Part shown: one piece after another, positions 6,948 to 33,885 of the stretch
How positions within the stretch are numbered: the stretch's first letter is position 1
Layout: every line of letters begins with the position of its first letter
Assembly: GCF_011405655.1 (NCBI RefSeq)
Contig: NZ_AP022829.1
Coordinates: 248,001-312,000 of the forward strand
Length of the DNA stretch: 64,000 nt
Source: Adlercreutzia hattorii
GTDB lineage: Bacteria; Actinomycetota; Coriobacteriia; Coriobacteriales; Eggerthellaceae
Direction of reading: 5' to 3'
Translations under genes and position numbers: made by a program
The notes under the pieces: generated by a model
Databases searched by the model: none
The model's input: only the letters and a program-made list of their open reading frames with translations
What the model was told of the DNA's origin: nothing

Positions 6948-7966
6948 AACTCGCCTTCCTCGACTTCAAACAAAGACTTTGACGGTGCAATTTCGATTCG
7001 AGCACTCTTAGACAAAGATAGAATTCCGTATATCGCCAGTTCTGGATCAAGCAGATCGGGCAAGTTGTATACGCCATTGGGGATGCTCCCAGCAAGGAAA
7101 CTCTCTATGGCATAGCATGCCACTGCTGCAGTTAGCTCATAGCTGTCGGCCGATTTAACAATGTAGGCCATTTCTCCAGAAGTTGCAGCCAACGTATAAA
7201 ATGCCTGTCTACCCATAGCATCGATGGATGCGGCTATGCTGATTTTCTTGCTTGCTTCTTCGAGGCTCTGGGTTTTCGACAACTGTGCGTCGACAAGAGC
7301 CTTGCAAAACAGATCACCTACAAATACGTTATACCATTCAAGTCTTGGAAGTGCCTCCTTCTCGGCTATGACTCTCGCCTCTTCTGACAAAAAGGCTCTG
7401 CAAAACGACCCTTCGGGAAAGCAAGAGGGGGCGGGGGTTGGATCGTGGTCAAGTTCGCGGACTGCGCCGCTACGCCACATGGAGCCATTGTTGCCATATC
7501 CCGACGTATCGGACATGCTCAAAACTAGATCCGCCGCAGCACCCAGAGAGATATCTTGGACTCCCCCGGCAAAGCCAACAATATCCTGTCCTTTGTTTGC
7601 GGAAATAGCCATCTTTAGTAGAAGACCCGAGAGCCCCGGCACCATTCCTGCAGAAAATACAACCGGTGTTTCCGCCGATTCGTCAGCTAGGGTTTTGCAC
7701 AGGTTTTCGCAGCCGGCAACGTCAAAGTATGCAACGCCTGAGCTTATGGCGGTTCTTGCTGCTGGTTCGCTCAGTAGATACGCGGGGCCAGCGCAGTTGA
7801 CCACAGCATCGCATCCATCGAGAAATCTTGACAAAGAACTAGGGTCTGTCATGTTGACGATGAATCCGGCCGAGCGAGAACCGAGGCGAAGCTCGTACCC
7901 CTTAGCTTTCAGCATGTCGGCAAGCAGTGATCCAACATGCCCGCTCGACCCAAGCACTCCGATCAT
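6944..7966 (-). CDS. Saccharopine dehydrogenase-like NAD(P)-dependent reductase
   Basis: A 340-residue protein with an N-terminal Rossmann motif GVLGSSGHVGSLLAD and the pattern VNCAGPAYLLSEPAARTAISSGVAYFDVAG that marks the saccharopine dehydrogenase-like/trans-acting reductase group. It overlaps its neighbours on both sides by 4 bp, so it is co-translated with NRPS B and the thiazolinyl imide reductase. Standard yersiniabactin and pyochelin loci have only one reductase, so this is an extra tailoring step. It could reduce a second ring, reduce an imine or aldehyde at release, or form an opine-type C-N bond; the sequence does not decide among these. No membrane segment or signal peptide is seen. 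Confidence 0.72.
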   Translation of the reverse strand: MIGVLGSSGHVGSLLADMLKAKGYELRLGSRSAGFIVNMTDPSSLSRFLDGCDAVVNCAGPAYLLSEPAARTAISSGVAYFDVAGCENLCKTLADESAETPVVFSAGMVPGLSGLLLKMAISANKGQDIVGFAGGVQDISLGAAADLVLSMSDTSGYGNNGSMWRSGAVRELDHDPTPAPSCFPEGSFCRAFLSEEARVIAEKEALPRLEWYNVFVGDLFCKALVDAQLSKTQSLEEASKKISIAASIDAMGRQAFYTLAATSGEMAYIVKSADSYELTAAVACYAIESFLAGSIPNGVYNLPDLLDPELAIYGILSLSKSARIEIAPSKSLFEVEEGEL

Positions 7967-10900
7967 CGAAGCCCCACTCTCTTTGCGACATCTTTTGCGT
8001 GTTCTCCGGATATGCAGGTAAAGTGATCTCCTTCTATATCTTGGGTGTCTATCCCCATGAGGGCGACGCTGTTCCAGAAAACCGTTTCATCACCACCGAT
8101 GTTCTTGAATAGCCCCATTCTTCCACTGTCTCGCAAAAAGTGGATAGGGCCAAGATAGGGTTTTGATTCGTATTCCATTACTGCAATCAAATTATGTTTG
8201 AACGTCCTGTAAATTTGGGTCAATCTTTCTACGACGTTGCTATCGGCGGTCACGGTTGAAAGTATCCTACGCATGCGCTCGTTCGAATCTAGGGAGGCAA
8301 TCTTCTTCAGTTTTTCGACAACAGGGCCTTCACCATCGAGAAGATCCAATACTCCGGGGTGTCGGATCTGGGCATCAGCGATTGCGTTGGCGAAGGCTTC
8401 GTCGTCTTTCGGATACCCGAGGTCTTCAGTTGGGGCATTAAGTACGCGAGCAAAAGCATACTCAATCATTACGTCTTCGGTGATTTTGAACGGGAACCCA
8501 TATGAGCTGATGACAAAGAGATCGGCAACGGTTTCTCCCTGCTCCATCAGGTTTCTTGCAATCTCTGTTGCGATCAAACCTCCCATGCAGTATCCCACTA
8601 TCCTAAAGCTGCATCCATTCCATTCCGAGAGGCGGTCGGCATACTCTCTTCCGAGGGTTTCTATAAGAGATCGGGTGTCATAATCCAAGGCTTTTTGCAT
8701 GTCGGGCATTTGCACACCGATGATGAGTTTGTCACCCGAAGCGCTAATAAGGTCGCGGTATGGGTCAAGAGTGCCTGTTCCGTCATGCACCAATACGTTA
8801 ACGACGCCATCTCCGTTTCCGTCTTTCAATACGACAACAGGCTCCATCTGCCCTTTGGGCGCGGCCTTTTCTGCTTCTTCTGTACTGGAGAGCGCGAGTG
8901 CGAGTGAGCTGACCGTTGGGCTTTCCATCATCTTTCTCAAAAGCCACTCCCATTCAAGCTCAGCCGCTTCGTCTACGTTCTTCTTTATCTGGGCTGCGAG
9001 TTTGGTGGCCAAAAGCGAATCGCCTCCAAGCTCAAAGAAGTCATCATCCCTCCTGACGCTATCTGCTCCGAGTACTTCAGAAAACTCTACAGCTAGGCGT
9101 GCTTCCAAATCGCTACGGTAGCTGTCTCTCTCATCTCCGATGCCCGCAGTTTTCGACTGCGTTCTTCCGAGCAGTGGTAGGCGTTTAAGCTCGGCTCTGT
9201 CAACCTTTCCGTTTCTCGAAAGGGGAAGGGTGTCGATTATCCCAATGGCTTCAGGAATCATGTATGAGGGAAGGGTTTCTTGTGCGGCTGATACCACATC
9301 ATCGACCGAAAGCGCGGCTATATCAGCCTTTGCTTGTGCGACTATCAGGTGCTGGCCAAAGAGATCCGGTTCTTCGTTCGTAGGAGAGCAGTCCGTCAAG
9401 CCAAAACCTGCTTTTGCGAGGATTCCGCTCCATTCGTCGAGGTTAAGGAATACCTTGCTGGTTCCTGCACGCAAATCCGAGTACTCCATCCCGAGGGCAT
9501 CTTGGAAATCCATGCTGACCATAAGGGGAAAGCTCTCGCGCGTGGCCTCAATAAAGGCCAAAATGCCTCCCGGAGAAAGAAGGGATTTGATTTGCCCCAG
9601 CCCTGCAAGGACATCGATGCAATTATGGAGTACGTTTGCGCCTACGATGAGATCAAATGAGTTGTCTGCAAGTCCCTGAGTTCTGGCATCCTTATTGACA
9701 TCGTAGATGGCGTAGCCAATCCAGTTTTTACCTTCGTAGCGATTTCGGGCTTCAGAGAGGAAGAATTCAGAGATGTCAGTAAAAAGATATGTGCTCCCCG
9801 TTCCCTCAAGCGCATCGATGAGCGAGTCGCTGCTGCCTCCCGTACCGGCCCCGACCTCAAGAACTCTCAACCCACCCTTGATGCGCGCAAATTCCGAAAC
9901 CATGCTAACTAGTGTGGAGTTGAGAGTTTTGGAGGCTAGGTTGTCCCTGTAGGTTGAAGCGGCTACATCAAAACCACCTTCGGGAAAAAGTATGGATAAA
10001 TGATCCACTTTCCCCGACACGAGGCCGGATAAGGAATCTATGCATGTGTGCAAAAACGACAAAAGCCCTTTGCTGTACTCGACTTTCAGTTCCAAGGATT
10101 CGAGCTGTTGCCATAAAGCTTCAATGTCGCCTCTCTTATAATCGTCCGAGAAGCAAAACGAGTCGCCCTTTGCATTGAGCGCTTTCATGTCGACGAGAGA
10201 CTTCGCCCATCTCTCTAGGAGCCTTCTGTTCCTCTCTTTGGCATTGAGTCCATGCATCATGTCATCCATTGAGAAGCAATCTTTGCTAACGGCATCTGCT
10301 ATCAAATTCATCATGGCCGACAAGCAGACCTCGTCAACTTTGCGGCAATACTCTGCAACTTCGTTGACAGCCATTTTGCTGAAGCGATCTCTCATACATT
10401 CTTTCATGGCGACCGTAGATCTCTTGAACAAGGATTCTGCCTTGTCGGGATTGACCTTTTCGGCGATGACTGCGGCGAGAAGATGCTTGTCGGTTTTATC
10501 GTTGTCGACAGCAAATGCGACAGCCTTGTCCACTCCCGGTGCCTTTTCTAAAGCGGCTTCCACTTCGCCTAGCTCGACGCGGTAACCCCGTACTTTAATC
10601 TGCTGATCTGCACGCCCGAGAAACTCGATGTCGCCGTTTTCCAGGTATTTGCCCATGTCGCCGGTTCGATAGCATTTCACTCCATCCCGCATTATAAAAC
10701 TCTCGGATGTTCGAACAGGGTCATTGAGGTAGCCCGAAGCAAGGCTCTTTCCGCTAATGATGATTTCACCCGGAACGAGAAGAGGCAGCGATTCAAGTTC
10801 GCGTCCTACGATATCAAACTCCTGGTTGGCAAGAGGCTTTCCGTAGGGAATGCTTGCCTTTTCCGAATCCGATGGATTGATTTCGTGGAAGATCGACCAG

Positions 10901-13356
10901 ATTCCTCCCTCGGTGGCACCGCCGAGGCTCACCATTTTCAAGTGAGGGATTTTATCTGCGATATCGTTGGGTAGAGAGACGGGTATCCAGTCGCCAGACA
11001 AGAGAGCGAGCCTCAAGGAAAGAGAGGGTACATCCGGAGCCGTATCAAGGTAGTAAGAAAGCATTTGCATCTGCTGGGGGACAGAATTCCATATCGTTAC
11101 CTTGCGTTTAACAACTACGTCGCACCAGCTCGACGGATCATTAAGTGATGAGGGTTCGGGGAAGATAAGCTCTCCTCCGACGGAAAGGATTCCAAATATA
11201 TCATATATAGCTAGGTCGAAGGTTAGCTCGGCCAATCCGATGATCTTGTCGCTCTGCCTAACGTTGAATCGAGAATTTATGTCGGCGATGGTGTTCCACG
11301 CGGCGGCGTGGCTCACCGCCACCCCCTTCGGCACCCCGGTGGAGCCAGACGTGTAGATCACGTAGGCTTCGTCAGATGGCAAAGTCCGATCCTCGAAGTT
11401 AGCGGAAATGTCATCGCTTAGGATAAGGTCGATATCCATAGCCTCTTCTTTGCCGGCCAAGTCAAGCCTTTCGAGGGTTTCAGCTTTGGCGAGAACCGCG
11501 CCCACTTCCGCATTGCCCATAACGGTGTCGACTCTTGATCGAGGATGGTCAGGGGATAGAGGAATAAAGGGAGCGCCGGCAAGGCTGCAGCCGATCACCG
11601 CAACTACTTGTGCAATGCTCTTCTCAAGAATGATCGCAGTCCGAACTCCTCGCTTTAACTTATGGGCCACTTTGAGGGAAAGCGCCCTCAGCTCCGCATA
11701 TGTCACAAACTCATCTCCCAATCGCACGGCGGGGAGCTCTGGATGAGAGAGGGCTGTCTTCATAAAGTCTGAGTGGAGGGTACTCGACACTATTTCTTTG
11801 CCGGTGTCGTTTGCTGCGATACGAACAAGTTTCTGCTTTTGAGGTAAATGGACTATTCGTGTCTCTTCCCATGTCGCTTTGCTCGAGGCAAGACTTCTAA
11901 GGGTCTGTTCGAAGGATGAAAAGGCATCTGAAACCAGACCGTCAGGGAAGACTCCAGCGCGCTCATCCCAATTGATTACAAGAGACCCATTCCACTCCAT
12001 CGCTTGGCAGTCAAGCCATACTTGGGGGGTTTGTGAAAGTCCGCCGATGACTCGAGAGCCACGAAAGAGGCTTGTTTCACTCAAGGACGATCCTCCGCGT
12101 AGGCCGATGCTGCTCGTGAAAACGAACGGCATGAGCGCCCCACCGCCCGCACGTCCACGTCGTCGCGCGATCTCTCTCAGCACGGAGACTCCGGAGAAGC
12201 TTCTATGTTCAAGATCCGACCATAGCTGTGATTGCGCTGCACGAGCGCGGGAGAAGAAGGGCGCGCGCTCGTCACGAATCAATCCCAATAGGCTTGACAT
12301 TGTGAAATCACCGACCGTACGCATGATTCCAGGAATGTCATCCCCCCTGTTCAACATTGTCATATTGATCGTGAAATCCGATGATTCCGCCCACAGCGCC
12401 AAAGTGTCCGAGAATGCAGCGACCAATGCAGCTGTGGGGGTAACCCCTTTCTCTGCGCTTGTGCGACGGAATTCTGCCCATTCGTTATCGGTAAGGCTCA
12501 TCTGGTGCCTAATGAATCTAACTCCCGTTCGCACGTCAGGATTCGGCCCCATGGGAAGCATAGGGGCGGGAGGCAATTCGTCAATGCGTGCCGACCAGTA
12601 TTCCTCATCTGCTTTTAGAGAAGGGCTGGAAACTCCTCGGGTTTTTGCATCCATGACAAAATCTCTGAAGGAAATCTCGTCGCTGCTATCTAGTTGCTCG
12701 CCGTCATATGCCCGAGCCAGATCATTGAGGATTATGGTAATGCTCAAAAAGTCACAAAGAGCCAAGTTGACTGATATGTGGAGGATTGACTTAATCCCAT
12801 CAGTACTCACTTTCAGTTCGTACGGATGGACCGAGGTTGCATAATCCTTGTGATCCATGGTTCTACGACATTCGGAAGCGACCTCTTCTAAGCTTCGCGA
12901 TTCGGCTTCGACGAATTCAATCAATCCCACATCATATTCTTCCAGCACCTGCTGATAACCGTCTTCAGAAATGACCGAGTGAAGTACGTCATGCCGAGCC
13001 ACCACTTTTCGCCATGCGTTGTTCAATCGCTCGAATTCAACGCCTCCCAAGCTAATCTCCATGTACCCTTGGCATCCCACTCCGCCGTAGGGATAAGCTT
13101 CGCTCTTGCCAAGCTGATAAGCTTGCTGTATGTCTGTAAGAGGATAAGGATCGTACCTTTTCTCGGGCTCGCGCTTTATCGGGCGAGGTTCGTTGAGGGC
13201 TGCGATTACAGCATCCCTGTTCTTCTTTATCAGGTTAGCCCTTTCTACCGTCATGGCTCCAGATGGCGCTCTGAATTTTAGCTTTCCGTCCTCGACCCAT
13301 AAACGTATTCCCGCATCTGCCATCTCTTCAAGAAGGCATCGGATCTCGTCCATCAT
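7963..13356 (-). CDS. NRPS B: TubC-like dock, Cy-A(Cys)-MT-PCP-TE
   Basis: A 1797-residue terminal NRPS. Reading order: TubC-like docking segment (about 1-60); heterocyclisation domain (70-490); adenylation core (520-950); methyltransferase inserted between adenylation motifs A8 and A10 (about 1080-1345, SAM motif VLEVGAGTGG at 1165); carrier domain with arm serine S1447 in LGGDSL; thioesterase (1510-1797). By-eye code residues (FDLAIYDIFG, IWNS, LLSGDW, SLGGATEGGIW) give D-L-Y-N-L-S-L-I-W, the cysteine code of HMWP2. Two oddities: the Cy motif DxxxxD reads NLALCD (N197), and the TE elbow reads GYCMGG, with Cys1590 in place of serine; H1778 is in place. The start overlaps the stop of NRPS A (ATGA). 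It should add and cyclise the last cysteine, methylate, and release the chain. Confidence 0.9.
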   Translation of the reverse strand: MMDEIRCLLEEMADAGIRLWVEDGKLKFRAPSGAMTVERANLIKKNRDAVIAALNEPRPIKREPEKRYDPYPLTDIQQAYQLGKSEAYPYGGVGCQGYMEISLGGVEFERLNNAWRKVVARHDVLHSVISEDGYQQVLEEYDVGLIEFVEAESRSLEEVASECRRTMDHKDYATSVHPYELKVSTDGIKSILHISVNLALCDFLSITIILNDLARAYDGEQLDSSDEISFRDFVMDAKTRGVSSPSLKADEEYWSARIDELPPAPMLPMGPNPDVRTGVRFIRHQMSLTDNEWAEFRRTSAEKGVTPTAALVAAFSDTLALWAESSDFTINMTMLNRGDDIPGIMRTVGDFTMSSLLGLIRDERAPFFSRARAAQSQLWSDLEHRSFSGVSVLREIARRRGRAGGGALMPFVFTSSIGLRGGSSLSETSLFRGSRVIGGLSQTPQVWLDCQAMEWNGSLVINWDERAGVFPDGLVSDAFSSFEQTLRSLASSKATWEETRIVHLPQKQKLVRIAANDTGKEIVSSTLHSDFMKTALSHPELPAVRLGDEFVTYAELRALSLKVAHKLKRGVRTAIILEKSIAQVVAVIGCSLAGAPFIPLSPDHPRSRVDTVMGNAEVGAVLAKAETLERLDLAGKEEAMDIDLILSDDISANFEDRTLPSDEAYVIYTSGSTGVPKGVAVSHAAAWNTIADINSRFNVRQSDKIIGLAELTFDLAIYDIFGILSVGGELIFPEPSSLNDPSSWCDVVVKRKVTIWNSVPQQMQMLSYYLDTAPDVPSLSLRLALLSGDWIPVSLPNDIADKIPHLKMVSLGGATEGGIWSIFHEINPSDSEKASIPYGKPLANQEFDIVGRELESLPLLVPGEIIISGKSLASGYLNDPVRTSESFIMRDGVKCYRTGDMGKYLENGDIEFLGRADQQIKVRGYRVELGEVEAALEKAPGVDKAVAFAVDNDKTDKHLLAAVIAEKVNPDKAESLFKRSTVAMKECMRDRFSKMAVNEVAEYCRKVDEVCLSAMMNLIADAVSKDCFSMDDMMHGLNAKERNRRLLERWAKSLVDMKALNAKGDSFCFSDDYKRGDIEALWQQLESLELKVEYSKGLLSFLHTCIDSLSGLVSGKVDHLSILFPEGGFDVAASTYRDNLASKTLNSTLVSMVSEFARIKGGLRVLEVGAGTGGSSDSLIDALEGTGSTYLFTDISEFFLSEARNRYEGKNWIGYAIYDVNKDARTQGLADNSFDLIVGANVLHNCIDVLAGLGQIKSLLSPGGILAFIEATRESFPLMVSMDFQDALGMEYSDLRAGTSKVFLNLDEWSGILAKAGFGLTDCSPTNEEPDLFGQHLIVAQAKADIAALSVDDVVSAAQETLPSYMIPEAIGIIDTLPLSRNGKVDRAELKRLPLLGRTQSKTAGIGDERDSYRSDLEARLAVEFSEVLGADSVRRDDDFFELGGDSLLATKLAAQIKKNVDEAAELEWEWLLRKMMESPTVSSLALALSSTEEAEKAAPKGQMEPVVVLKDGNGDGVVNVLVHDGTGTLDPYRDLISASGDKLIIGVQMPDMQKALDYDTRSLIETLGREYADRLSEWNGCSFRIVGYCMGGLIATEIARNLMEQGETVADLFVISSYGFPFKITEDVMIEYAFARVLNAPTEDLGYPKDDEAFANAIADAQIRHPGVLDLLDGEGPVVEKLKKIASLDSNERMRRILSTVTADSNVVERLTQIYRTFKHNLIAVMEYESKPYLGPIHFLRDSGRMGLFKNIGGDETVFWNSVALMGIDTQDIEGDHFTCISGEHAKDVAKRVGLR
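11282..11367. repeat. 86-bp conversion-like patch shared with NRPS A adenylation domains
   Basis: Inside the otherwise lower-GC NRPS B gene, this stretch matches 14596-14681 (and the equivalent parts of the two other NRPS A repeats) with a single mismatch at 11347. It encodes the A3 core region (YTSGSTGVPKGVAVSHAAAW). The flanking sequence on both sides diverges at once and is visibly AT-richer, so identity at synonymous positions is unlikely to come from protein constraint alone. A short gene-conversion tract from NRPS A is the simplest reading. Confidence 0.75.
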
Positions 13357-16300
13357 AGGGTTCCCTCCTCATATGTGTCCCCGCATGTCGTATCTATCTT
13401 TTGGCAGATTCCGGCTACAGTCGGATCGGATATAAATTCTTGAAGTCCAATTTTGAATCCAAGACGCTTTTCCAAAGCGCTCGTCATTCTCATGGCCATG
13501 AGGCTGTCGCCGCCCAGCTCGAAGAAGTTCGACTCCCTTCCGACGGGCCCCGCATCGAGCAGCTCCTCCCACACCGACGCCACGGCGCGCTCCGCTTCGG
13601 TGGCCGGTTCGGACAGGGAGGATGCGGACGGGGCCGCTTCGGGGGCCATGCCGGCCAAGGCCTTTCGATCGACCTTCCCGTTCGCGCTCAAGGGCCACTC
13701 GTCTAGGACCGTCACGTCATGGGGGACGAAGTAGGAGGGAAGGAGCCCGGCCACGCGGGACAGCACCCCGGCCGGATCCACGTCAGCCCCCTCGTCGGCG
13801 ACCACGAACGCATGCACCACCGAGCGCTCGCGCTCGCCGGCCACGACGGCCACGGCCCCCTTCACCCCGGGGCATCCGGCCACGGCGGCCTCGACCTCGC
13901 CCAGCTCCACCCTGTGGCCGCGTATCTTCACCTGCTGCTGGGAATCCTTGCGACCGAGGAACTCCAAGACGGCTCCGGGCCAGTAGCGGCCCATGTCCCC
14001 CGTCCGGTACCAGCGCCCCCCGTCCTCGACGAAGGAGGCGGCCGTCTTCCCCGGATCGCCCAGATACCCGTCGGCCAGGCTCCCCCCGCCGATCCACAGC
14101 TCGCCGGGCACCCAGTCGGGGCAGTCGAGGCCGTCCTCGCCCACGACGCGGAAGGACTGGTTGGAGAGGGGCCTGCCGTAGGGGATCGAGCTCCACGACG
14201 GATCGACCTCCCCGACCTCGAAGTAGTTCGACCATATGCCGGCCTCGGTCGCGCCGCCCATGGCCACGAGCAGCACCCCCTCGGGCAGCTTCGAGCGCAG
14301 ACCCAGCGGCACCCAGTCGCCGGAGACGAGGGCCAACCGCAGACCGGCCGCGGCCCCGGGGCCGTCGTCGAGCATCACGTCCAGCAGGGCGGGGGCCGAG
14401 TTCCACACCGTCACGCCCCGGGACGAGACGAGCTCGCGCCACGCCGATGCGTCGCGGCGCTCCTCCTCGTCGGGCAGCACGACGGCGGCTCCGAACGAGA
14501 GGGCCCCGAAGATGTCGAACACGGAGAGGTCGAAGTCAAGGGCCGACACGCCCAGGACCGCATCTCCCGGCCCCATGCCCCATCGGCGCACGACATCGGC
14601 GATGGTGTTCCACGCGGCGGCGTGGCTCACCGCCACCCCCTTCGGCACCCCGGTGGAGCCGGACGTGTAGATCACGTAGGCCAGCGCGCGCTCGGAGGGG
14701 CCGGCGGGCGCGGGGAGGGGGTCGGCCGCCTCGAGGCGGGCCAGCTCGGTGGAGTCGACGCACAGGGACGCGCCCGCCTGTTCGAGGATGAGCGCCGCGC
14801 GGGCCTCGGGCTGGGAGACGCCGACGGGGACGTACGCCGCCCCGGCGGCCAGCACGCCCAGCACGGCTGCCACCTGGCCGGGCCCCTTCGGGAGCCTGAC
14901 GGCCACGCGGTCGCCCTCGCCCACGCCGGCGGCGGCGAGCCCCCCGGCGATGCGCAGGGCGCGGCCGGCAAGCTCCCCGTAGGTCGCCTCGCCGTCGGCT
15001 CCCCACCGCAGCGCCGGGGCATCCGGCTCGGCCTGGGCGCGGGCGAAGAACCGTCCGTGGAGCGTCCCGCCGCCGAGGTCGGCCCCCTCCGAGTTCGCCT
15101 CGGCGCGCGCCGCGCGCTGCGAAGGGGGCAGCAGGTCGGGGAACGGCTCCGACCAGTCTGAGGCCGCCAAAGAGGAGACGGCCGAGCAGTACGCATCGAA
15201 CATATCGGCGATCATTCCGTCGGGGAACAGCTCGGACACGTAGTCCCACGAGAGCATGACGCCGCCGCCTCTCTCCATGGCTTGGTGGTCGAGCCACACC
15301 TGTGGAGTCTGGGACAGGCCGCCCAGATAATCCATGAAGCCGCCGTCGAGATCGAACCTACTCAGGCCGAGGGCGCTTGTGAACACCACGGGCAGAACCA
15401 CTCCGGAGGTCCCTGCGGAGCGCGCCAGCTCGCGCTGGACCCACACGGCCGAGACCGCCCTATGCTCCAATCCTCCGGCAAGCTCGTTCTGGACGCCCCT
15501 CATCTGGGCCTCGACGGACGCGTCGGCCGAGGGGCGGCATGCCACCGGGAGAAGGGTGGTGAAGTCGCCCACCACCTTGTCTATGTCGGGATGGACCTCG
15601 GGGCGGTCGAAGATGGTCAGGTTCAGCGTCACGCCGCCCCCTCCGCTCCAGGCTGACAGCACCCTCGCGTAGCAAGCAAGCAGGACTGCCGAGGGTGTGA
15701 TGCCGTGCAGCCGGGCCTTTTCCTTGACCGCCGACCATTCGGGCTCGGCAACCGTCCGCCACAGGCGCTCGAACCTCCCTTCCCCGACCGTCGAGGGGTC
15801 GGCGGCGAGGGGGAGCTGCGGCGCGGGCGGCAGCTCGGGCAAGCGCGAGCGCCAGTAGCCCTCCGCCTCTTCAACCTCGCGACCGTCTCTCCGGTGCCCG
15901 ACGACGAAATCCCTGAACGTCAGGCCGATGCCGGGGAGGTCGGCCCCGGGGTTCTCGTAGAGTTCGGCCAGTTCGGCGAGAACGGTGCTCATGCTCACGC
16001 CGTCTACCATAGTGTTGTCGAAGCCAATACCGACAACAGCACCGCTGCTATAAACTGCCGAGAGAGCTTCAAAGCCGGGAGATTTCGTTAGATCTATCGA
16101 TCTATGCGACATTGCTTGTTCGACTATTTTACGAGCATCTTTTGAATCCATTGCATTTTGGACAGCCAGAGGTAGATTCAGATCAGATGATCGATACACC
16201 TGCTGCTTCTCGCCATTCTTGACTAGAAGAGTGCGCAAGGCTCCGTGACGCTCGAGCAGAATCCTCCATGCTGATGCAAATCTGTCGTGACTGTATTCGC

Positions 16301-19300
16301 TAGTTTCAAACATGAAGAAGCAATAGGATCCTACCTTGCCCAAGTCGAGACCGCTGGTCCTTCCTATGGTGTATGCCCTCTGTACCTCGGTGAGGTCGAA
16401 CGGCTCAAATCTCAACTCTTCATTGATAGTGATTGCCTTGGAGTTATTAGGAGACGAAATGGAAAGCCCTTTGCAGAAGTCTGCAAGATTTCCTGAGGCG
16501 AAAAGCTCCTTTAGACTTGCTTTGATGCCAATTTTTGAAAGAGCGGAAATCATCCGCGTAGCACTTAGGCTGTCTCCTCCGTATTCAAAAAATCCATCGT
16601 AGCGGCCGACACGCCTTCCTCCAAGGAATTTTGACCATATAGACGAAACCTTTTTCTCGATTTCTCCATTTGGCTCAATATAATTGTCAGATGCATCACA
16701 GAAAGAGCAATACAATTCAGCCCAGTCTTTAACGCTTCCTTTATCCACTTTTCCGTTTCTGGATAGCGGCTGAGAAGGTAGGATTCCAAGATGCTCGGGA
16801 ACCATATATGCGGGAACTTCTTTTTCTAGAGTAGAGCGGAGAAGTGTGAGGTCGATAGGTGGAGAAGTTCGGCTGGACAGAGAGATGAACAGGCCATCGT
16901 CGATTTTTACCCAGTCGGCACGCAATCCTTTCTCCGAAAGAGAGTCGATCCATTTCTCGGGAGAAAGCAGACCGCTCGGTTCCCCATCGCCAAATGCGCA
17001 CTGGGCAATTGCAGCTGTTACCATTGCGGAAGGGGCAAACTCGGTGGGATCCACAATGAAAGCCCTGCCGTCTGCTGCTAGGGTTTCTCCAAGAGCACTT
17101 ATTGCCTCAGAAGGTTCTTCCATGGTGTGAATTGCGTTTATCGACACCACAACATCGAAACGTGCATGAATATCTTGATCGACAACTTTTGTAAGCTTTG
17201 CTGTTCTCACTTTTTCTGAAAAGTCGTCTAGCCTTGTTTTGGCCATATCTAGCATAGATTGAGAAGTGTCGAGCAGATGGTATTCCGAGATAGTATCTGC
17301 GACCTCGGGGAGCAACAGGGCTGATATGCGTCCACTTCGGCATCCGAAATCAGCGACTTTAAGTTTGCGGCCAAGCGTTTCAGCCATTGCCTTGATTGTG
17401 GCGATTGCGTCCTTGATGATTCTTTGGGACGAGTTGCGAGAGAGAAAGAGGGCTTCAGGAGAGAACCTGTCGCTTTCGTACAACGTGGAAGGGTCTGCGG
17501 CTTCTGTCAGTATCTTTTCATAGAAATCAGCGGCTTCTTCCAATGTGTTGTCTCGGCATACTGTTGAGCAATTTGAAGTGTTGCGAGAGAGCATTTCCAT
17601 AACCGCGTGATATCGTGAAGAAGATTCGTCACTCTGCTCGTTCGTAAAAAGCCTGTCATTCGACAAGCCTCGCTCTTTGATAAGAATATTAGAAAGCGCA
17701 GTGAGCCGCGTGTGTTCAGCTTCCCTGTTCTCGACTGGCGATCTCTCGCTAATTGAGGCGATGGGGGCTTCGCTGATGGCAGGGATTGCGACAGCAAAAA
17801 GATGCTCGCGCTCGCCGGCCACGACGGCCACGGCCCCCTTCACCCCGGGGCATCCGGCCACGGCGGCCTCGACCTCGCCCAGCTCCACCCTGTGGCCGCG
17901 TATCTTCACCTGCTGCTGGGAATCCTTGCGACCGAGGAACTCCAAGACGGCTCCGGGCCAGTAGCGGCCCATGTCCCCCGTCCGGTACCAGCGCCCCCCG
18001 TCCTCGACGAAGGAGGCGGCCGTCTTCCCCGGATCGCCCAGATACCCGTCGGCCAGGCTCCCCCCGCCGATCCACAGCTCGCCGGGCACCCAGTCGGGGC
18101 AGTCGAGGCCGTCCTCGCCCACGACGCGGAAGGACTGGTTGGAGAGGGGCCTGCCGTAGGGGATCGAGCTCCACGACGGATCGACCTCCCCGACCTCGAA
18201 GTAGTTCGACCATATGCCGGCCTCGGTCGCGCCGCCCATGGCCACGAGCAGCACCCCCTCGGGCAGCTTCGAGCGCAGACCCAGCGGCACCCAGTCGCCG
18301 GAGACGAGGGCCAACCGCAGACCGGCCGCGGCCCCGGGGCCGTCGTCGAGCATCACGTCCAGCAGGGCGGGGGCCGAGTTCCACACCGTCACGCCCCGGG
18401 ACGAGACGAGCTCGCGCCACGCCGATGCGTCGCGGCGCTCCTCCTCGTCGGGCAGCACGACGGCGGCTCCGAACGAGAGGGCCCCGAAGATGTCGAACAC
18501 GGAGAGGTCGAAGTCAAGGGCCGACACGCCCAGGACCGCATCTCCCGGCCCCATGCCCCATCGGCGCACGACATCGGCGATGGTGTTCCACGCGGCGGCG
18601 TGGCTCACCGCCACCCCCTTCGGCACCCCGGTGGAGCCGGACGTGTAGATCACGTAGGCCAGCGCGCGCTCGGAGGGGCCGGCGGGCGCGGGGAGGGGGT
18701 CGGCCGCCTCGAGGCGGGCCAGCTCGGTGGAGTCGACGCACAGGGACGCGCCCGCCTGTTCGAGGATGAGCGCCGCGCGGGCCTCGGGCTGGGAGACGCC
18801 GACGGGGACGTACGCCGCCCCGGCGGCCAGCACGCCCAGCACGGCTGCCACCTGGCCGGGCCCCTTCGGGAGCCTGACGGCCACGCGGTCGCCCTCGCCC
18901 ACGCCGGCGGCGGCGAGCCCCCCGGCGATGCGCAGGGCGCGGCCGGCAAGCTCCCCGTAGGTCGCCTCGCCGTCGGCTCCCCACCGCAGCGCCGGGGCAT
19001 CCGGCTCGGCCTGGGCGCGGGCGAAGAACCGTCCGTGGAGCGTCCCGCCGCCGAGGTCGGCCCCCTCCGAGTTCGCCTCGGCGCGCGCCGCGCGCTGCGA
19101 AGGGGGCAGCAGGTCGGGGAACGGCTCCGACCAGTCTGAGGCCGCCAAAGAGGAGACGGCCGAGCAGTACGCATCGAACATATCGGCGATCATTCCGTCG
19201 GGGAACAGCTCGGACACGTAGTCCCACGAGAGCATGACGCCGCCGCCTCTCTCCATGGCTTGGTGGTCGAGCCACACCTGTGGAGTCTGGGACAGGCCGC

Positions 19301-22300
19301 CCAGATAATCCATGAAGCCGCCGTCGAGATCGAACCTACTCAGGCCGAGGGCGCTTGTGAACACCACGGGCAGAACCACTCCGGAGGTCCCTGCGGAGCG
19401 CGCCAGCTCGCGCTGGACCCACACGGCCGAGACCGCCCTATGCTCCAATCCTCCGGCAAGCTCGTTCTGGACGCCCCTCATCTGGGCCTCGACGGACGCA
19501 TCGGCCGAGGGGCGGCATGCCACCGGGAGAAGGGTGGTGAAGTCGCCCACCACCTTGTCTATGTCGGGATGGACCTCGGGGCGGTCGAAGATGGTCAGGT
19601 TCAGCGTCACGCCGCCCCCTCCGCTCCAGGCTGACAGCACCCTCGCGTAGCAAGCAAGCAGGACTGCCGAGGGTGTGATGCCGTGCAGCCGGGCCTTTTC
19701 CTTGACCGCCGACCATTCGGGCTCGGCAACCGTCCGCCACAGGCGCTCGAACCTCCCTTCCCCGACCGTCGAGGGGTCGGCGGCGAGGGGGAGCTGCGGC
19801 GCGGGCGGCAGCTCGGGCAAGCGCGAGCGCCAGTAGCCCTCCGCCTCTTCAACCTCGCGACCGTCTCTCCGGTGCCCGACGACGAAATCCCTGAACGTCA
19901 GGCCGATGCCGGGGAGGTCGGCCCCGGGGTTCTCGTAGAGTTCGGCCAGTTCGGCGAGAACGGTCATAACGCTAAGTGCGTCAAGCACCGTATAGTCGAA
20001 GCAGAATACAAGTCGAGTTTGCTTTCCTGATTCTTCATGCCAAGAAATTGAGACCACGCGATGAAGAGGGGGTTTTGCCAATGCGAATACAGTACGTTTA
20101 ATCTCTTCGAGTTGCTGCTTTGCTTCAGAGCTATTTGCGCATTCAGCTCGCTCTATGTGTCCGATTTTGGAAGACGGTGCAATGGATTGAGTTCCGTCTT
20201 CTTCGACCGATGCTCTCATCATTCCGTGTCTCTTCTGCACTTTGCCCCATGCAGCATCAAGCCGATCAAGATCGATTTCGTCTACTGCGAATATCTGGCA
20301 GTAGGTTGTGCCAACGGTGGCTTGGCTGGATGAGTCTCCGCGGCTCACCAGATAAGCGTGTTGTATTTCCGTCAAAGGAAAACTCTCGTATTCTTTTGAC
20401 GGATCTACCTCAATGAGAGCTTCCTGCTTTGGGGGAGCTTCTCTTTTCCTGAGCGTCTTGCAAAACTCACTTAGATTTTCCGTATCAAAAAGAAGCTGAA
20501 GGCGAGCATCCTCGTATCCGAGTGCCCGCACTCTGCCGATGACTCGTGATGCCATGAGGCTGTCGCCGCCCAGCTCGAAGAAGTTCGACTCCCTTCCGAC
20601 GGGCCCCGCATCGAGCAGCTCCTCCCACACCGACGCCACGGCGCGCTCCGCTTCGGTGGCCGGTTCGGACAGGGAGGATGCGGACGGGGCCGCTTCGGGG
20701 GCCATGCCGGCCAAGGCCTTTCGATCGACCTTCCCGTTCGCGCTCAAGGGCCACTCGTCTAGGACCGTCACGTCATGGGGGACGAAGTAGGAGGGAAGGA
20801 GCCCGGCCACGCGGGACAGCACCCCGGCCGGATCCACGTCAGCCCCCTCGTCGGCGACCACGAACGCATGCACCACCGAGCGCTCGCGCTCGCCGGCCAC
20901 GACGGCCACGGCCCCCTTCACCCCGGGGCATCCGGCCACGGCGGCCTCGACCTCGCCCAGCTCCACCCTGTGGCCGCGTATCTTCACCTGCTGCTGGGAA
21001 TCCTTGCGACCGAGGAACTCCAAGACGGCTCCGGGCCAGTAGCGGCCCATGTCCCCCGTCCGGTACCAGCGCCCCCCGTCCTCGACGAAGGAGGCGGCCG
21101 TCTTCCCCGGATCGCCCAGATACCCGTCGGCCAGGCTCCCCCCGCCGATCCACAGCTCGCCGGGCACCCAGTCGGGGCAGTCGAGGCCGTCCTCGCCCAC
21201 GACGCGGAAGGACTGGTTGGAGAGGGGCCTGCCGTAGGGGATCGAGCTCCACGACGGATCGACCTCCCCGACCTCGAAGTAGTTCGACCATATGCCGGCC
21301 TCGGTCGCGCCGCCCATGGCCACGAGCAGCACCCCCTCGGGCAGCTTCGAGCGCAGACCCAGCGGCACCCAGTCGCCGGAGACGAGGGCCAACCGCAGAC
21401 CGGCCGCGGCCCCGGGGCCGTCGTCGAGCATCACGTCCAGCAGGGCGGGGGCCGAGTTCCACACCGTCACGCCCCGGGACGAGACGAGCTCGCGCCACGC
21501 CGATGCGTCGCGGCGCTCCTCCTCGTCGGGCAGCACGACGGCGGCTCCGAACGAGAGGGCCCCGAAGATGTCGAACACGGAGAGGTCGAAGTCAAGGGCC
21601 GACACGCCCAGGACCGCATCTCCCGGCCCCATGCCCCATCGGCGCACGACATCGGCGATGGTGTTCCACGCGGCGGCGTGGCTCACCGCCACCCCCTTCG
21701 GCACCCCGGTGGAGCCGGACGTGTAGATCACGTAGGCCAGCGCGCGCTCGGAGGGGCCGGCGGGCGCGGGGAGGGGGTCGGCCGCCTCGAGGCGGGCCAG
21801 CTCGGTGGAGTCGACGCACAGGGACGCGCCCGCCTGTTCGAGGATGAGCGCCGCGCGGGCCTCGGGCTGGGAGACGCCGACGGGGACGTACGCCGCCCCG
21901 GCGGCCAGCACGCCCAGCACGGCTGCCACCTGGCCGGGCCCCTTCGGGAGCCTGACGGCCACGCGGTCGCCCTCGCCCACGCCGGCGGCGGCGAGCCCCC
22001 CGGCGATGCGCAGGGCGCGGCCGGCAAGCTCCCCGTAGGTCGCCTCGCCGTCGGCTCCCCACCGCAGCGCCGGGGCATCCGGCTCGGCCTGGGCGCGGGC
22101 GAAGAACCGTCCGTGGAGCGTCCCGCCGCCGAGGTCGGCCCCCTCCGAGTTCGCCTCGGCGCGCGCCGCGCGCTGCGAAGGGGGCAGCAGGTCGGGGAAC
22201 GGCTCCGACCAGTCGTTTTCGCAGTAGAAGCGCACTGCTGTGCAATATGCCTCAAACATCTGTTTGGCTATTTTGTCATCAAGCAATTCGGAAACGTAAT

Positions 22301-23753
22301 CCCACGCCAAAAGCAACCCGTTTTTATGATCGTATATCTGATGATCCAGCAATACCTGTGGTGTTTCTGCTAGCATCTTCGACAAGGGACCGAAAACATC
22401 TTCCACTTTGTTGGAGATAAATTGGGTGCCGATATTGCTAGCGAATACAACAGGGGCTTTCTTGGGATCGTTTGGGCAACGGTGAGAAAGCTCTCTCAAA
22501 ACCTCTACAGCTCCAAATGAAGAGTGCGCAACATCCTGCTGAAAGCGTCCTTGCATTTGAGAAGCTAGTTCAAGAAGGGAAATTGCGTTTGCGCAATCAG
22601 CCTCAAGAAGGATAAGAGAGGTGAAGTCGGATACGATCTTGTCAACGTCTGGGTGAATTGGTTTTCTGTTGAACAGCGGAAGGTTGAGAAGAAATTTCTT
22701 GTCTTCGCTCCATCGAGAAAGAGCCTTGGCATAAACAGCGGCGATGCCCATAGATTGGGTAACCCCGATTTGCCGTCCTTTCTCGGTGAAGTTCTTCCAA
22801 GACTTAGAATCAATTAAGTACTCCATACGAGTGAATTGAGATCTTTTGACACTCTCCATAGGGGCTTTCAGTGGCAAAGAGGGGCCGCCTGGCATGTTGT
22901 CTATTCGATTCAGCCAGTATTCTCTATCCTCGTTTCGTGCGTCTTCTCCGATTCCGGTTCTTCTCGCATACTCCATGAAGTCTATCTCGATGGGGGCGAG
23001 ATCCGTTCCGTCGTAGAGATGCGCTAGATCCTCTAAGAGAACTTGGATGCTAAGCACATCAGCTGCAAGAAGATCGACGTTGATATGCATGATAGTGCGT
23101 TTCGGTGATACGACAGTAAGGCGTACATCTATGAGATCGTCTTGCTCGATGTCGAAACGTAGGTGACTTAATTCTTGGCGAATACCTTCAATCCTCGAGT
23201 CGGGATTGCCTGCTCCTTCCACTCTGTAGGTGGTTAGTCCCTTCCAAGTTACTTTGTCTTCGATGCGGGCTGTTCCGTCATCAGAGAACCGGGCGCGCAG
23301 CATGGGATGCCTTAGAATAAGAAGTTCCACTGCGCGTTCGAGTTTGGCCGCATCGAGAGATCCGCATTCGAATTCCATATAAGCGTGACAAGCGGTTCCC
23401 CCTAGCTCCTGTCCGTCTCGCCTTCCAACCATATAGGCATGTTGGACGGACGTGATCGGAAAGGGGTCGCCTTTGCTGTAATTTGCGGAACCGAGGAGAG
23501 GGCTGCCATTAGACGAGCTTCTCGCAGACCTCTCTCTTGCAAAATTTACCCAAGAAGCCATACAGGGATTCGAAACCAATTCTGAAAAGGTAACATTGCA
23601 GCCATTCTTTGTTAGCAACCCAGCTATTCTCATAATGTCAAGAGATCCTAGCCCCAAACTGATAAGATTATCCGAAGGGCTTAGTTCTTCTTTTGACAGT
23701 CCGAGCATTTCCCCAACAAGCTTTCCAACTAGCTCCACGCATACTTCAGACAT
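13353..23753 (-). CDS. NRPS A: ArCP-(Cy-A-PCP)-(Cy-A-MT/E-PCP)-(Cy-A-PCP)
   Basis: A 3466-residue loading and elongation NRPS. From the chosen start: aryl carrier domain (S37 in LGLGSLDIMR); Cy1 (D227/D232); A1 (545-1015); PCP1 (S1065); Cy2 (D1253/D1258); A2 (from 1571) with a methyltransferase-fold insert (about 2060-2300, motif VADFGCRSGR); PCP2 (S2395); Cy3 (D2579/D2584); A3; PCP3 (S3417). All Cy domains here keep DxxxxD. The A domains share the code residues D-L-F-N-L-S-M-I-W, cysteine-like. The insert may be a methyltransferase or, as in PchE/HMWP2, an epimerase-like relic. ATG 23753 is preferred because gaaaggg precedes it and it matches the ArCP start; upstream in-frame codons lack a ribosome site. 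It loads the aryl acid from the divergent ligase and adds three cysteines. Confidence 0.9.
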   Translation of the reverse strand: MSEVCVELVGKLVGEMLGLSKEELSPSDNLISLGLGSLDIMRIAGLLTKNGCNVTFSELVSNPCMASWVNFARERSARSSSNGSPLLGSANYSKGDPFPITSVQHAYMVGRRDGQELGGTACHAYMEFECGSLDAAKLERAVELLILRHPMLRARFSDDGTARIEDKVTWKGLTTYRVEGAGNPDSRIEGIRQELSHLRFDIEQDDLIDVRLTVVSPKRTIMHINVDLLAADVLSIQVLLEDLAHLYDGTDLAPIEIDFMEYARRTGIGEDARNEDREYWLNRIDNMPGGPSLPLKAPMESVKRSQFTRMEYLIDSKSWKNFTEKGRQIGVTQSMGIAAVYAKALSRWSEDKKFLLNLPLFNRKPIHPDVDKIVSDFTSLILLEADCANAISLLELASQMQGRFQQDVAHSSFGAVEVLRELSHRCPNDPKKAPVVFASNIGTQFISNKVEDVFGPLSKMLAETPQVLLDHQIYDHKNGLLLAWDYVSELLDDKIAKQMFEAYCTAVRFYCENDWSEPFPDLLPPSQRAARAEANSEGADLGGGTLHGRFFARAQAEPDAPALRWGADGEATYGELAGRALRIAGGLAAAGVGEGDRVAVRLPKGPGQVAAVLGVLAAGAAYVPVGVSQPEARAALILEQAGASLCVDSTELARLEAADPLPAPAGPSERALAYVIYTSGSTGVPKGVAVSHAAAWNTIADVVRRWGMGPGDAVLGVSALDFDLSVFDIFGALSFGAAVVLPDEEERRDASAWRELVSSRGVTVWNSAPALLDVMLDDGPGAAAGLRLALVSGDWVPLGLRSKLPEGVLLVAMGGATEAGIWSNYFEVGEVDPSWSSIPYGRPLSNQSFRVVGEDGLDCPDWVPGELWIGGGSLADGYLGDPGKTAASFVEDGGRWYRTGDMGRYWPGAVLEFLGRKDSQQQVKIRGHRVELGEVEAAVAGCPGVKGAVAVVAGERERSVVHAFVVADEGADVDPAGVLSRVAGLLPSYFVPHDVTVLDEWPLSANGKVDRKALAGMAPEAAPSASSLSEPATEAERAVASVWEELLDAGPVGRESNFFELGGDSLMASRVIGRVRALGYEDARLQLLFDTENLSEFCKTLRKREAPPKQEALIEVDPSKEYESFPLTEIQHAYLVSRGDSSSQATVGTTYCQIFAVDEIDLDRLDAAWGKVQKRHGMMRASVEEDGTQSIAPSSKIGHIERAECANSSEAKQQLEEIKRTVFALAKPPLHRVVSISWHEESGKQTRLVFCFDYTVLDALSVMTVLAELAELYENPGADLPGIGLTFRDFVVGHRRDGREVEEAEGYWRSRLPELPPAPQLPLAADPSTVGEGRFERLWRTVAEPEWSAVKEKARLHGITPSAVLLACYARVLSAWSGGGGVTLNLTIFDRPEVHPDIDKVVGDFTTLLPVACRPSADASVEAQMRGVQNELAGGLEHRAVSAVWVQRELARSAGTSGVVLPVVFTSALGLSRFDLDGGFMDYLGGLSQTPQVWLDHQAMERGGGVMLSWDYVSELFPDGMIADMFDAYCSAVSSLAASDWSEPFPDLLPPSQRAARAEANSEGADLGGGTLHGRFFARAQAEPDAPALRWGADGEATYGELAGRALRIAGGLAAAGVGEGDRVAVRLPKGPGQVAAVLGVLAAGAAYVPVGVSQPEARAALILEQAGASLCVDSTELARLEAADPLPAPAGPSERALAYVIYTSGSTGVPKGVAVSHAAAWNTIADVVRRWGMGPGDAVLGVSALDFDLSVFDIFGALSFGAAVVLPDEEERRDASAWRELVSSRGVTVWNSAPALLDVMLDDGPGAAAGLRLALVSGDWVPLGLRSKLPEGVLLVAMGGATEAGIWSNYFEVGEVDPSWSSIPYGRPLSNQSFRVVGEDGLDCPDWVPGELWIGGGSLADGYLGDPGKTAASFVEDGGRWYRTGDMGRYWPGAVLEFLGRKDSQQQVKIRGHRVELGEVEAAVAGCPGVKGAVAVVAGEREHLFAVAIPAISEAPIASISERSPVENREAEHTRLTALSNILIKERGLSNDRLFTNEQSDESSSRYHAVMEMLSRNTSNCSTVCRDNTLEEAADFYEKILTEAADPSTLYESDRFSPEALFLSRNSSQRIIKDAIATIKAMAETLGRKLKVADFGCRSGRISALLLPEVADTISEYHLLDTSQSMLDMAKTRLDDFSEKVRTAKLTKVVDQDIHARFDVVVSINAIHTMEEPSEAISALGETLAADGRAFIVDPTEFAPSAMVTAAIAQCAFGDGEPSGLLSPEKWIDSLSEKGLRADWVKIDDGLFISLSSRTSPPIDLTLLRSTLEKEVPAYMVPEHLGILPSQPLSRNGKVDKGSVKDWAELYCSFCDASDNYIEPNGEIEKKVSSIWSKFLGGRRVGRYDGFFEYGGDSLSATRMISALSKIGIKASLKELFASGNLADFCKGLSISSPNNSKAITINEELRFEPFDLTEVQRAYTIGRTSGLDLGKVGSYCFFMFETSEYSHDRFASAWRILLERHGALRTLLVKNGEKQQVYRSSDLNLPLAVQNAMDSKDARKIVEQAMSHRSIDLTKSPGFEALSAVYSSGAVVGIGFDNTMVDGVSMSTVLAELAELYENPGADLPGIGLTFRDFVVGHRRDGREVEEAEGYWRSRLPELPPAPQLPLAADPSTVGEGRFERLWRTVAEPEWSAVKEKARLHGITPSAVLLACYARVLSAWSGGGGVTLNLTIFDRPEVHPDIDKVVGDFTTLLPVACRPSADASVEAQMRGVQNELAGGLEHRAVSAVWVQRELARSAGTSGVVLPVVFTSALGLSRFDLDGGFMDYLGGLSQTPQVWLDHQAMERGGGVMLSWDYVSELFPDGMIADMFDAYCSAVSSLAASDWSEPFPDLLPPSQRAARAEANSEGADLGGGTLHGRFFARAQAEPDAPALRWGADGEATYGELAGRALRIAGGLAAAGVGEGDRVAVRLPKGPGQVAAVLGVLAAGAAYVPVGVSQPEARAALILEQAGASLCVDSTELARLEAADPLPAPAGPSERALAYVIYTSGSTGVPKGVAVSHAAAWNTIADVVRRWGMGPGDAVLGVSALDFDLSVFDIFGALSFGAAVVLPDEEERRDASAWRELVSSRGVTVWNSAPALLDVMLDDGPGAAAGLRLALVSGDWVPLGLRSKLPEGVLLVAMGGATEAGIWSNYFEVGEVDPSWSSIPYGRPLSNQSFRVVGEDGLDCPDWVPGELWIGGGSLADGYLGDPGKTAASFVEDGGRWYRTGDMGRYWPGAVLEFLGRKDSQQQVKIRGHRVELGEVEAAVAGCPGVKGAVAVVAGERERSVVHAFVVADEGADVDPAGVLSRVAGLLPSYFVPHDVTVLDEWPLSANGKVDRKALAGMAPEAAPSASSLSEPATEAERAVASVWEELLDAGPVGRESNFFELGGDSLMAMRMTSALEKRLGFKIGLQEFISDPTVAGICQKIDTTCGDTYEEGTL
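13495..15986. repeat. NRPS module repeat, copy a (module 3)
   Basis: Very GC-rich segment covering the end of Cy3 through A3 to the start of PCP3. Positions 13826-15986 match copy b (17804-19964) over 2161 bp with one silent difference (15522 versus 19500, GAC/GAT Asp). Positions 13495-15158 match copy c (20551-22214) over 1664 bp with no difference seen. The core 13826-15158 is therefore shared by all three copies. Boundaries fall just after the Cy DxxxxD motif and inside the carrier domain at GGDSLMA. Confidence 0.95.
17804..19964. repeat. NRPS module repeat, copy b (module 2)
   Basis: Matches copy a at 13826-15986 over 2161 bp with a single silent base change. It spans the C-terminal part of Cy2 from TVLAELAELYENP onward and the A2 core, and stops at the codons for VVAGERE, exactly where the inserted methyltransferase-like domain begins. 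Sequence on both sides is much lower in GC, so the borders are abrupt and visible without alignment software. Confidence 0.95.
20551..22214. repeat. NRPS module repeat, copy c (module 1)
   Basis: Matches copy a at 13495-15158 over 1664 bp with no difference seen, including translations in several frames. It spans the Cy1/A1 linker (DWSEPFPDLLPPSQ), all of A1 and the first part of PCP1 to GGDSLMA. Unlike copies a and b it does not include the C-terminal part of the Cy domain, so Cy1 is native while Cy2 and Cy3 share their C-lobes. Confidence 0.95.
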
Positions 23754-29831: not shown

Positions 29832-29845
29832 GTGAGGTGGAACTG

Positions 29846-33844: not shown

Positions 33845-33885
33845 AGTGTATACAAGGGTGTATAGTTCATACTAGGGGTGGTGCT

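Follow-up and report, generated by a model that had tools for sequence, protein, structure and literature searches.

The stretch of DNA analysed here, called the window (64,000 nucleotides, G000:C1:248001-312000), comes from the 2.91 Mb, single-contig genome of Adlercreutzia hattorii and contains two adjoining nonribosomal peptide synthetase (NRPS) genes, NRPS B and NRPS A, which lie with accessory genes on a mobile element (Table 1). We consider it probable that the two genes specify a four-cysteine, aryl-capped metallophore line, that its repeated adenylation (A) cassettes have undergone conversion, and that recombination between the first and the third cassette, m1 and m3, shed two modules in sister copies of the element.

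Pfam models matched three Condensation, three AMP-binding, four PP-binding and one methyltransferase domain in NRPS B (P0002), and one each of Condensation, AMP-binding, PP-binding, Thioesterase and methyltransferase, together with a TubC docking domain, in NRPS A (P0001). The totals were one aryl carrier protein (ArCP), four heterocyclization (Cy) domains, four cysteine-type A domains, four peptidyl carrier proteins (PCPs) and one thioesterase (TE). The same count had been proposed in a first-pass annotation made from the sequence alone, and it was confirmed here by Pfam, motifs and specificity codes. The claim that the line contains no polyketide synthase (PKS) also held, as no ketosynthase or acyltransferase domain was found by Pfam in 31 scanned open reading frames (ORFs), which were drawn from the 134 mechanically listed ORFs of at least 120 aa in the window. 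For NRPS B, an ATG at 23753 was a better fit as the start than the mechanically called GTG at 23999. The phosphopantetheine serine was present in all four PCPs and the A3, A5, A7 and A10 cores in all four A domains, with A10 of A2 and A4 following the embedded methyltransferase (MT) domains. A DxxxxDxxS motif was found in Cy1-Cy3.

Specificity codes read on an alignment were DLFNVSMIW in A1, A2 and A3 alike and DLYNLSLIW in A4. The Cys codes tabulated in PMC3672683 are DLY/F-N-M/L-S-M/L-I/V. By these references all four A domains are cysteine-type, as the first-pass annotation had read them. None of the eight characterised Cys references there has the valine of A1-A3 at position 299, which we also found in A2 and A3 of another actinomycetotal line, G470.

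In nine aligned TE rows the active-site residue was Cys in five (the window, its G062 copy, G046, a second line of G062, and G638) and Ser in four (G470, G050, G551 and G610). The two MT domains match each other at 26%. MT4 has a canonical motif I, from which a methylation is plausible. The motif I of MT2 reads GCRSG (GCRTG in G046; G638 is canonical at the same place), and because it differs from the canonical form MT2 is perhaps no methyltransferase. MT2 matched PchE weakly (18.9 bits, E 0.0088, rank 9 of 34). PchE holds an epimerase-like MT relic, and by analogy MT2 may be such a relic rather than a methyltransferase.

Table 1. Features of the window (positions in window coordinates)
Feature	Position	Strand	Remark
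NRPS B	13353..23753	-	ArCP-Cy1-A1-PCP1-Cy2-A2(MT2)-PCP2-Cy3-A3-PCP3
NRPS A	7963..13356	-	TubC docking-Cy4-A4(MT4)-PCP4-TE
ArCP	23505..23753	-	phosphopantetheine Ser in GLGSLDI, by eye
Cy1	22200..23483	-	
MT2	16860..17699	-	inside A2; motif I non-canonical (GCRSG)
MT4	9307..10356	-	inside A4; motif I canonical (LEVGAGTGG)
Thioesterase	7966..8826	-	Cys replaces Ser, GYCMGG
Cassette m1 (A1 and start of PCP1)	20551..22214	-	GC3 0.93
Cassette m2 (C-half of Cy2 and A2 up to the MT insertion)	17804..19964	-	GC3 0.90; one mismatch to m3
Cassette m3 (C-half of Cy3, A3, start of PCP3)	13495..15986	-	GC3 0.90
86-nt tract in A4 common with the cassettes, one mismatch	11282..11367	-	GC3 0.96
Saccharopine-dehydrogenase-type NADP-binding protein, SrbE/EqbM-like	6944..7966	-	PF03435 26.5 bits, cut-off 25.1
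Thiazolinyl imine reductase	5964..6947	-	TIGR01761, 269.1 bits, cut-off 188.8
Aryl-AMP ligase	23845..25440	+	likely ATG near 23898
19-bp imperfect palindrome GCTATAGTATACTTATAGC	23812..23830		between divergent ligase and NRPS genes; by eye; sole copy in window
TetR-like regulator	25441..26169	-	under curated cut-offs of models
ABC transporter subunit, membrane and ATPase domains fused	26027..28105	+	
Second ABC subunit, same fused kind	27921..29831	+	
DtxR-type iron-dependent repressor	29837..30226	+	
S-adenosylmethionine synthetase	30285..31577	+	
Cysteine synthase	31607..32536	+	
Adenosylhomocysteinase (AhcY)	32588..33844	+	
Frame with C-terminal 4'-phosphopantetheinyl transferase	33208..34605	+	
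Tyrosine integrase of element	38485..39867	+	
Complete tRNA-Gly(CCC) carried by element	39948..40021	+	shared DNA stops at 40217

Repeated A cassettes and their composition

The DNA of A1, A2 and A3 proved to be near-identical, a feature on which, as on the non-canonical S-adenosylmethionine (SAM) motif of MT2, the first-pass annotation had been silent. Cassettes m1 and m3 are identical over 1,664 bases (20551-22214 and 13495-15158), and m2 and m3 differ by one mismatch over 2,161 bases (17804-19964 versus 13826-15986). Besides the A4 tract, a search of the source genome for further copies, with 40 of 190 candidates scored, gave only a weak 41-base match. The cassettes have a GC content at third codon positions (GC3) of about 0.9 inside a gene of about 50% GC. 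When both genes were read in 30-codon windows and four mixed windows were set aside, GC3 was at least 0.77 in 70 of 70 windows within the repeats and at most 0.70 in 100 of 100 outside them. An A-domain tree of 31 rows left the cassette unplaced, and among solved structures the best match of the A1 cassette was PchE.

A1-A3 are one A domain found at three places, probably kept identical by homologous recombination (gene conversion). The swapping of A domains by gene conversion is known (PMC3640908), and concerted evolution that homogenises assembly lines is mentioned in PMC9205934. Module 1 may have been turned to cysteine by receiving the cassette, because five of eight other first-module A domains read here are non-Cys (G470, the second line of G062, G561, G541 and G610; those of G638, G648 and G113 are Cys-type) and window A1 lies outside the one supported clade that these five form in the tree.

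The high GC content of the repeats fits GC-biased gene conversion, a process reported from the repeated palindromes on the X chromosomes of primates (PMC8981503); our literature search found no work linking gene conversion, A domains and GC. Another line, in G050, is split over three frames and contains an A pair 98.4% identical over 1,452 bp (L030:11238-12689 and 15634-17084). Its GC content is 0.71-0.86 over the repeat versus roughly 0.5-0.68 around it at 300-base resolution, and GC3, read in two of the three frames, was 0.95 for the 32 windows within the repeat and 0.72 for the 87 windows beyond it, of which 33 exceeded 0.75. The third, unlike A domain of G050 showed a slight rise, with a GC3 of 0.79 versus 0.73 for the adjacent Cy. 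In Curtanaerobium respiraculi (G046) the ends of a repeated A domain have 71-74% GC versus 57-59%. Non-repeated A domains resemble their surroundings (GC3 0.58 in A4 and 0.50-0.54 in the second line of G062). Against GC-biased conversion stands the module-2/3 duplicate of G470, 80.8% alike, which shows no rise (A2/A3 GC3 0.77 versus 0.81-0.85 in most neighbours); a GC rise over repeats is not universal.

Alternatively, a GC-rich donor could have supplied the cassette in a single import, after which it was copied inside the gene; its composition would then reflect the donor instead of conversion. We give this a chance only slightly short of even. A GC3 of about 0.9 resembles that of high-GC actinobacteria, outside the element the nearest relative, G610 at 57% (with the best four candidates per genome considered), is rich in GC, and the flat G470 duplicate agrees with import. 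The searches for a donor argue against it: with the best four candidates scored per genome, none above 57% was found among 396 genomes of the phylum, all plasmid matches were below 60%, and among 396 genomes of the class (two candidates per genome) no match exceeded 77% DNA identity (128 bases), the element itself and conserved-motif matches of at most 100 bases aside. Import is further opposed by the GC-rich repeats of the separate G050 pair and of Curtanaerobium. The in-cassette half of Cy3 is also no farther from Curtanaerobium Cy3 (50.4%; 48.4% to G470) than the half outside (47.5%), a comparison that mildly favours change in place. A recent close donor was dropped as a candidate, none having appeared in the class, phylum or plasmid searches.

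Sister elements and the number of modules

The shared element extends from C1:215945 to C1:288217, a length of 72 kb as against 62 kb in G062. At the left end 28 bases match the 5' part of tRNA-Gly; the right end carries the complete tRNA-Gly(CCC), beyond which G062 and G089 have the 3' half of the tRNA that was interrupted (by eye). Among its genes are those for a type IV secretion system coupling protein, a TraG-like P-loop ATPase, a CHAP protein and a DUF3801 protein. When 138 genomes of the family were searched with NRPS A (three candidates scored per genome), some match was found in 130, mostly, judged by the part that matched, to A domains of other proteins. Matches at about 100% were confined to three genomes, namely the source, G062 (another genus) and Gordonibacter sp. 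An230 (G089, same family as the source), and full-length diverged forms were found in G046 (40%) and in the second line of G062 (38%). The element is present in three genera of the family, between which it appears to move. A plasmid search with the cluster DNA returned one record with 1% coverage, and viral contigs gave one pattern match and no relatives.

The sister elements in G062 and G089 are more than 99% identical to that of the window and lack modules 2 and 3. In G062 a single block of 7,056 bp between m1 and m3 is absent, a multiple of three and in frame; save point differences and two insertion sequences (ISs) of the window, the rest of the shared element matches throughout. The short NRPS B of G062 is ArCP-Cy-A-PCP (1,114 aa) with an unchanged C-terminal end, giving ArCP-Cy-A-PCP / Cy-A-MT-PCP-TE, which is the pyochelin layout. 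In G089 the flanks match over two contigs. Since the cassettes are in-phase direct repeats, recombination between them would remove whole modules in frame and leave both ends of the line intact, and recombination of m1 with m3 most likely produced the two-module, pyochelin-like line in G062 and An230.

Over 5415-15158 the window differs from G062 at 15 and from G089 at 16 positions. On the right there are three differences from G062 (20551-34605; one cassette base enters both G062 ranges) and one from G089 (22138-34605), and in the left part of the element (-32055 to 3901) 264 and 262 bases differ, or about 0.7%. The short form was probably a single deletion event that later spread, because a single base separates the two short alleles over 5415-15158. 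Among the 14 window/G062 differences outside the cassette (5415-13494), the window has A/T versus G/C in the sister at 13, and the single in-cassette difference runs in the opposite direction, the three window copies all having C where both sisters have T. This bias was not used as a mutation clock, as the density of differences varies along the element from about 0.7% on the left to about 0 on the right.

That the missing modules are an assembly artefact of the sister genomes is very improbable. Repeats of 1.7 kb can collapse, and the An230 contigs do stop at the edge of the cassette, overlapping by 77 nt (L065:1-77 and L025:1-77; C1 and C73); however, neither genome contains the unique module-2/3 DNA (1.8 kb tested), G062 consists of one contig, and two genera agree. 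A pure short allele should not branch at the cassette edge, and for this reason the An230 culture may have held both long and short forms.

A line of more than two modules is likely the older state, because MT2-PCP2-Cy3 is found in the diverged G046 line and a four-Cy line in G638. The contig pieces of C. respiraculi read ArCP-Cy1-[A]; [A]-MT2-PCP2-Cy3-[A]; and [A]-PCP3 / Cy4-A4-MT4-PCP-TE, and MT2-PCP2-Cy3 is 41% identical to that of the window. Both where the A domain begins and where it ends, the broken ends share an overlap of 127 identical bases. A PCP1-Cy2 piece was not found in this genome, where the contigs are unjoined and the A interior lies outside the assembly pieces examined. The simplest reading is a line of three modules in which two copies of A agree at either end. 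The two-module form would then have arisen by loss, not gain, and the number of modules seems to vary by recombination between the repeats of the line itself.

The reverse order, in which the two-module form is older and the window line gained two modules into which the A cassette was copied, we hold to be distinctly unlikely. It would account for the isolation of the N-half of Cy2 (whose identity to the Cy rows compared does not exceed 33%) and for the low MT2/MT4 match, and the A-less modules 2 and 3 of G638 indicate that an A domain could be inserted into modules of this kind. On the other hand, Curtanaerobium, about 40% diverged, has MT2-PCP2-Cy3-A-PCP3 clustered with an NRPS A homologue (on unjoined contigs), and the N-half of Cy3 is closest to Curtanaerobium Cy3 at 47.5%, the next best of the 14 rows printed reaching 33.3%.

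Two further lines were observed alongside. The chromosome of G062 has a second thiazoline line (L023:10057-19916 and L024:3-5384) with five Cy and three A domains, an apparent frameshift in the fourth Cy and the first A code DLYSLGLIH. In the four-Cy line of G638 (L095:4733-19494), modules 2 and 3 have no recognised A domain, which suggests that they are loaded in trans.

Module loss is familiar from the microcystin and nodularin lines, and gain or loss has mostly been reconstructed from old, blurred traces. Here, two gene forms are separated by a two-module block and a few point changes within near-identical elements of three genera, and the repeats that would have caused the change are still present. 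A natural module deletion thereby becomes directly testable, Cys A-PCP units are suggested to contain a site for in-frame fusion, and the cassettes offer a test case for whether bacterial gene conversion pushes GC upward. A wider proposal is that GC-biased conversion homogenises the Cys A cassettes, has raised their GC far beyond that of the remaining gene in at least two lines, possibly three, and turned module 1 to cysteine, with the repeats shedding and regaining modules. We put it forward tentatively and with more doubt than belief; if true, one element would give siderophores of two, three or four rings across hosts, perhaps within one culture.

Three identical ISs were present in the window (3902-5414, 34606-36119 and 51030-52543), of the Mutator family by the one copy scanned, and two of them interrupt the element solely in the window's version. 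From 40218 to about 77200 other mobile genes follow, then a second complete tRNA-Gly(CCC) (L061:13106-13180), as if a tandem element occupied the same site; a subtilase and AAA ATPase pair at 52656-56230 strongly matched the IetS/IetA defence system. The element also carries a 2014-aa N6-methylase/helicase fusion (L059:13649-19693) and a C5 methylase (L060:699-2351).

Accessory genes and predicted product

The protein at 6944..7966 is matched better by PF01370 than by PF03435 (31.2 versus 26.5 bits). In the aryl-AMP ligase the discriminating residues Cys239 and Leu330, read by eye, are of the salicylate type; Cys and Leu at these positions tell salicylate from dihydroxybenzoate enzymes according to PMC3672683. 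The imperfect palindrome between the ligase and NRPS genes is a possible operator, and a promoter-region search found no inverted repeats at the thresholds set. A peptide/nickel-type ABC importer (SBP_bac_5, permeases and ATPases; L060:17373 to window position 2237) lies on the element beside the cluster and may serve the metallophore.

No dedicated salicylate synthase was found, the sole PF00425 match in the source genome (L007) being an isochorismate synthase. One PF01817 (chorismate-mutase-type) match adjoins an apparent DAHP synthase gene (by eye). With these as the only matches to the two models, local salicylate synthesis was dropped as an explanation; a promiscuous enzyme activity might conceivably form it, but because a dedicated synthase was not found, salicylate probably comes from outside the cell. 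The anthranilate and aminodeoxychorismate synthases of the PF00425 family also seem to be missing from this genome.

In the proposed mechanism, the ligase would load a salicylate-type aryl acid onto the ArCP, and four rounds of cysteine condensation and cyclisation would give up to four thiazoline or thiazolidine rings, with modules 1-3 loading cysteine through the same A domain, held identical by gene conversion. The reductase would reduce at least one ring, MT4 would methylate at least one, and the Cys TE would release the chain with or without an extra residue. Most likely, the product would be an iron or zinc carrier under the DtxR-type repressor. The first-pass annotation had predicted an aryl-capped four-Cys chain with at least one methylation and a ring reduction; the PKS-free line, MT4 and the TIGR01761 reductase support this picture, but the number of four rings is only a prediction, because in sorangibactin the first A domain, predicted to be Cys-specific, was assigned to Ser (PMC10127202).

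A more ordinary possibility, which we regard as rather unlikely, is a pyochelin/yersiniabactin-type line in which redundant modules are skipped, the product being no longer than known ones. Trans-loading and non-collinearity occur in this family, in equibactin (PMC3672683) and mupirochelin (PMC10080011), and the altered Cy4 and MT2 motifs would suit skipping; the PCP and A core motifs, however, are intact in all four modules.

Several observations count against the four-module, mobile metallophore line favoured here. The Cy4 motif is NxxxxDxxS (HISVNLALCDFLS), with Asn for the first Asp, and MT2 may be inactive or an epimerase. Other code positions of the ligase deviate, by eye, from the salicylate rows in PMC3672683. 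The short form is known from two sister copies that are almost one allele, and the gain scenario above belongs on the same side. Finally, no relaxase was recognised in any of the 18 listed ORFs (at least 200 aa) of the left part of the element, and for this reason the element, judged by its gene content, is called only probably conjugative.

Comparison with known lines

By gene content, the window line falls among the PKS-free metallophore lines of the salicylate/thiazoline kind (pyochelin, coelibactin/sorangibactin and equibactin), because the Cys TE, the PF03435 partner, the thiazolinyl imine reductase and a ligase with salicylate-type residues are shared with siderophore lines. The accessory genes are of the siderophore type. 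The likeness to tantazole and mirabazole backbones suggested there was not sustained, as the accessory parts point to coelibactin/sorangibactin and equibactin; consecutive thiazolines would be common to the window and tantazole, mirabazole or thiangazole only if the prediction holds (the tantazole/mirabazole chain is one of alpha-methylated thiazolines and lacks siderophore tailoring), and the tantazole-type reading was dropped on the accessory genes, with no gene-cluster comparison made. A transferable candidate metallophore island is added to a little-studied gut family, and our literature search found no description of such a line in Eggerthellaceae.

The pyochelin line (PchE/PchF) has a two-module layout, which is that of the short sister copies; the window line differs in two extra Cys modules, the Cys TE and the extra PF03435 protein. 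The yersiniabactin line has a salicyl cap, thiazoline rings, an ABC pair and a location on a mobile island. All four are present in or predicted for the window (PMC3672683 in part), whereas yersiniabactin is made with a single Cys A domain together with a PKS module, and the window line has no PKS.

Coelibactin/sorangibactin shares the salicyl ligase (a probable one in the window), the order ArCP-(Cy-A-PCP)n with a last Cy module bearing MT and TE, the Cys TE, the PF03435 partner (SrbE) and the thiazolinyl imine reductase (SrbI) (PMC10127202). As reported there, sorangibactin requires the Cys TE, SrbE (deleted with SrbF/G) and the Irp3-like reductase, and ends in homocysteine thiolactone; the AhcY and SAM synthetase genes of the window are suggestive at most of such an end. 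It differs in that SrbC has seven and SrbD five domains (three elongating modules by count), the window having four Cys-coded modules and two embedded MT-like domains, and in having a P450, a VOC protein, trans-acting MTs and a salicylate synthase (PMC10127202). None of these was found among the 31 window ORFs, to which the search for the first three was confined.

Equibactin resembles the window in having a Cy line free of PKS and situated on an integrative conjugative element (a probable one in the window), with a DtxR-like repressor, phosphopantetheinyl transferase, saccharopine-dehydrogenase-like EqbM, reductase and salicyl ligase (again a probable one in the window), and salicylate had to be added in defined medium (PMC3672683). 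Equibactin lacks a salicylate synthase, and no dedicated one was found in the source genome of the window. Beside its three Cy domains equibactin has a single A domain, thought to serve three PCPs, in contrast to four A domains in the window, and its TE has Ala for Ser and is joined by a type II TE (PMC3672683). Mupirochelin shares a coelibactin-like PKS-free line, a reductase and an MT domain, and differs in a first A domain predicted to be Thr-specific and a Cys module thought to be iterative; a product longer than its module count has been proposed (PMC10080011).

The closest layouts were found in Actinomycetota. G470 has four Cy-A modules arranged 3+1 (ArCP-Cy-A-PCP-Cy-A-PCP-Cy-A-PCP / Cy-A-MT-PCP-TE) with PF03435-type and reductase genes, and differs in the non-Cys code DLYSLGLIH of module 1, the Ser TE and module-2/3 copies without raised GC. 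G638 has the Cy and MT order of the window with A2 and A3 missing. The four-module layout is not unique, being found in G470 and G638, whereas four Cys-coded A domains were met in no other line compared.

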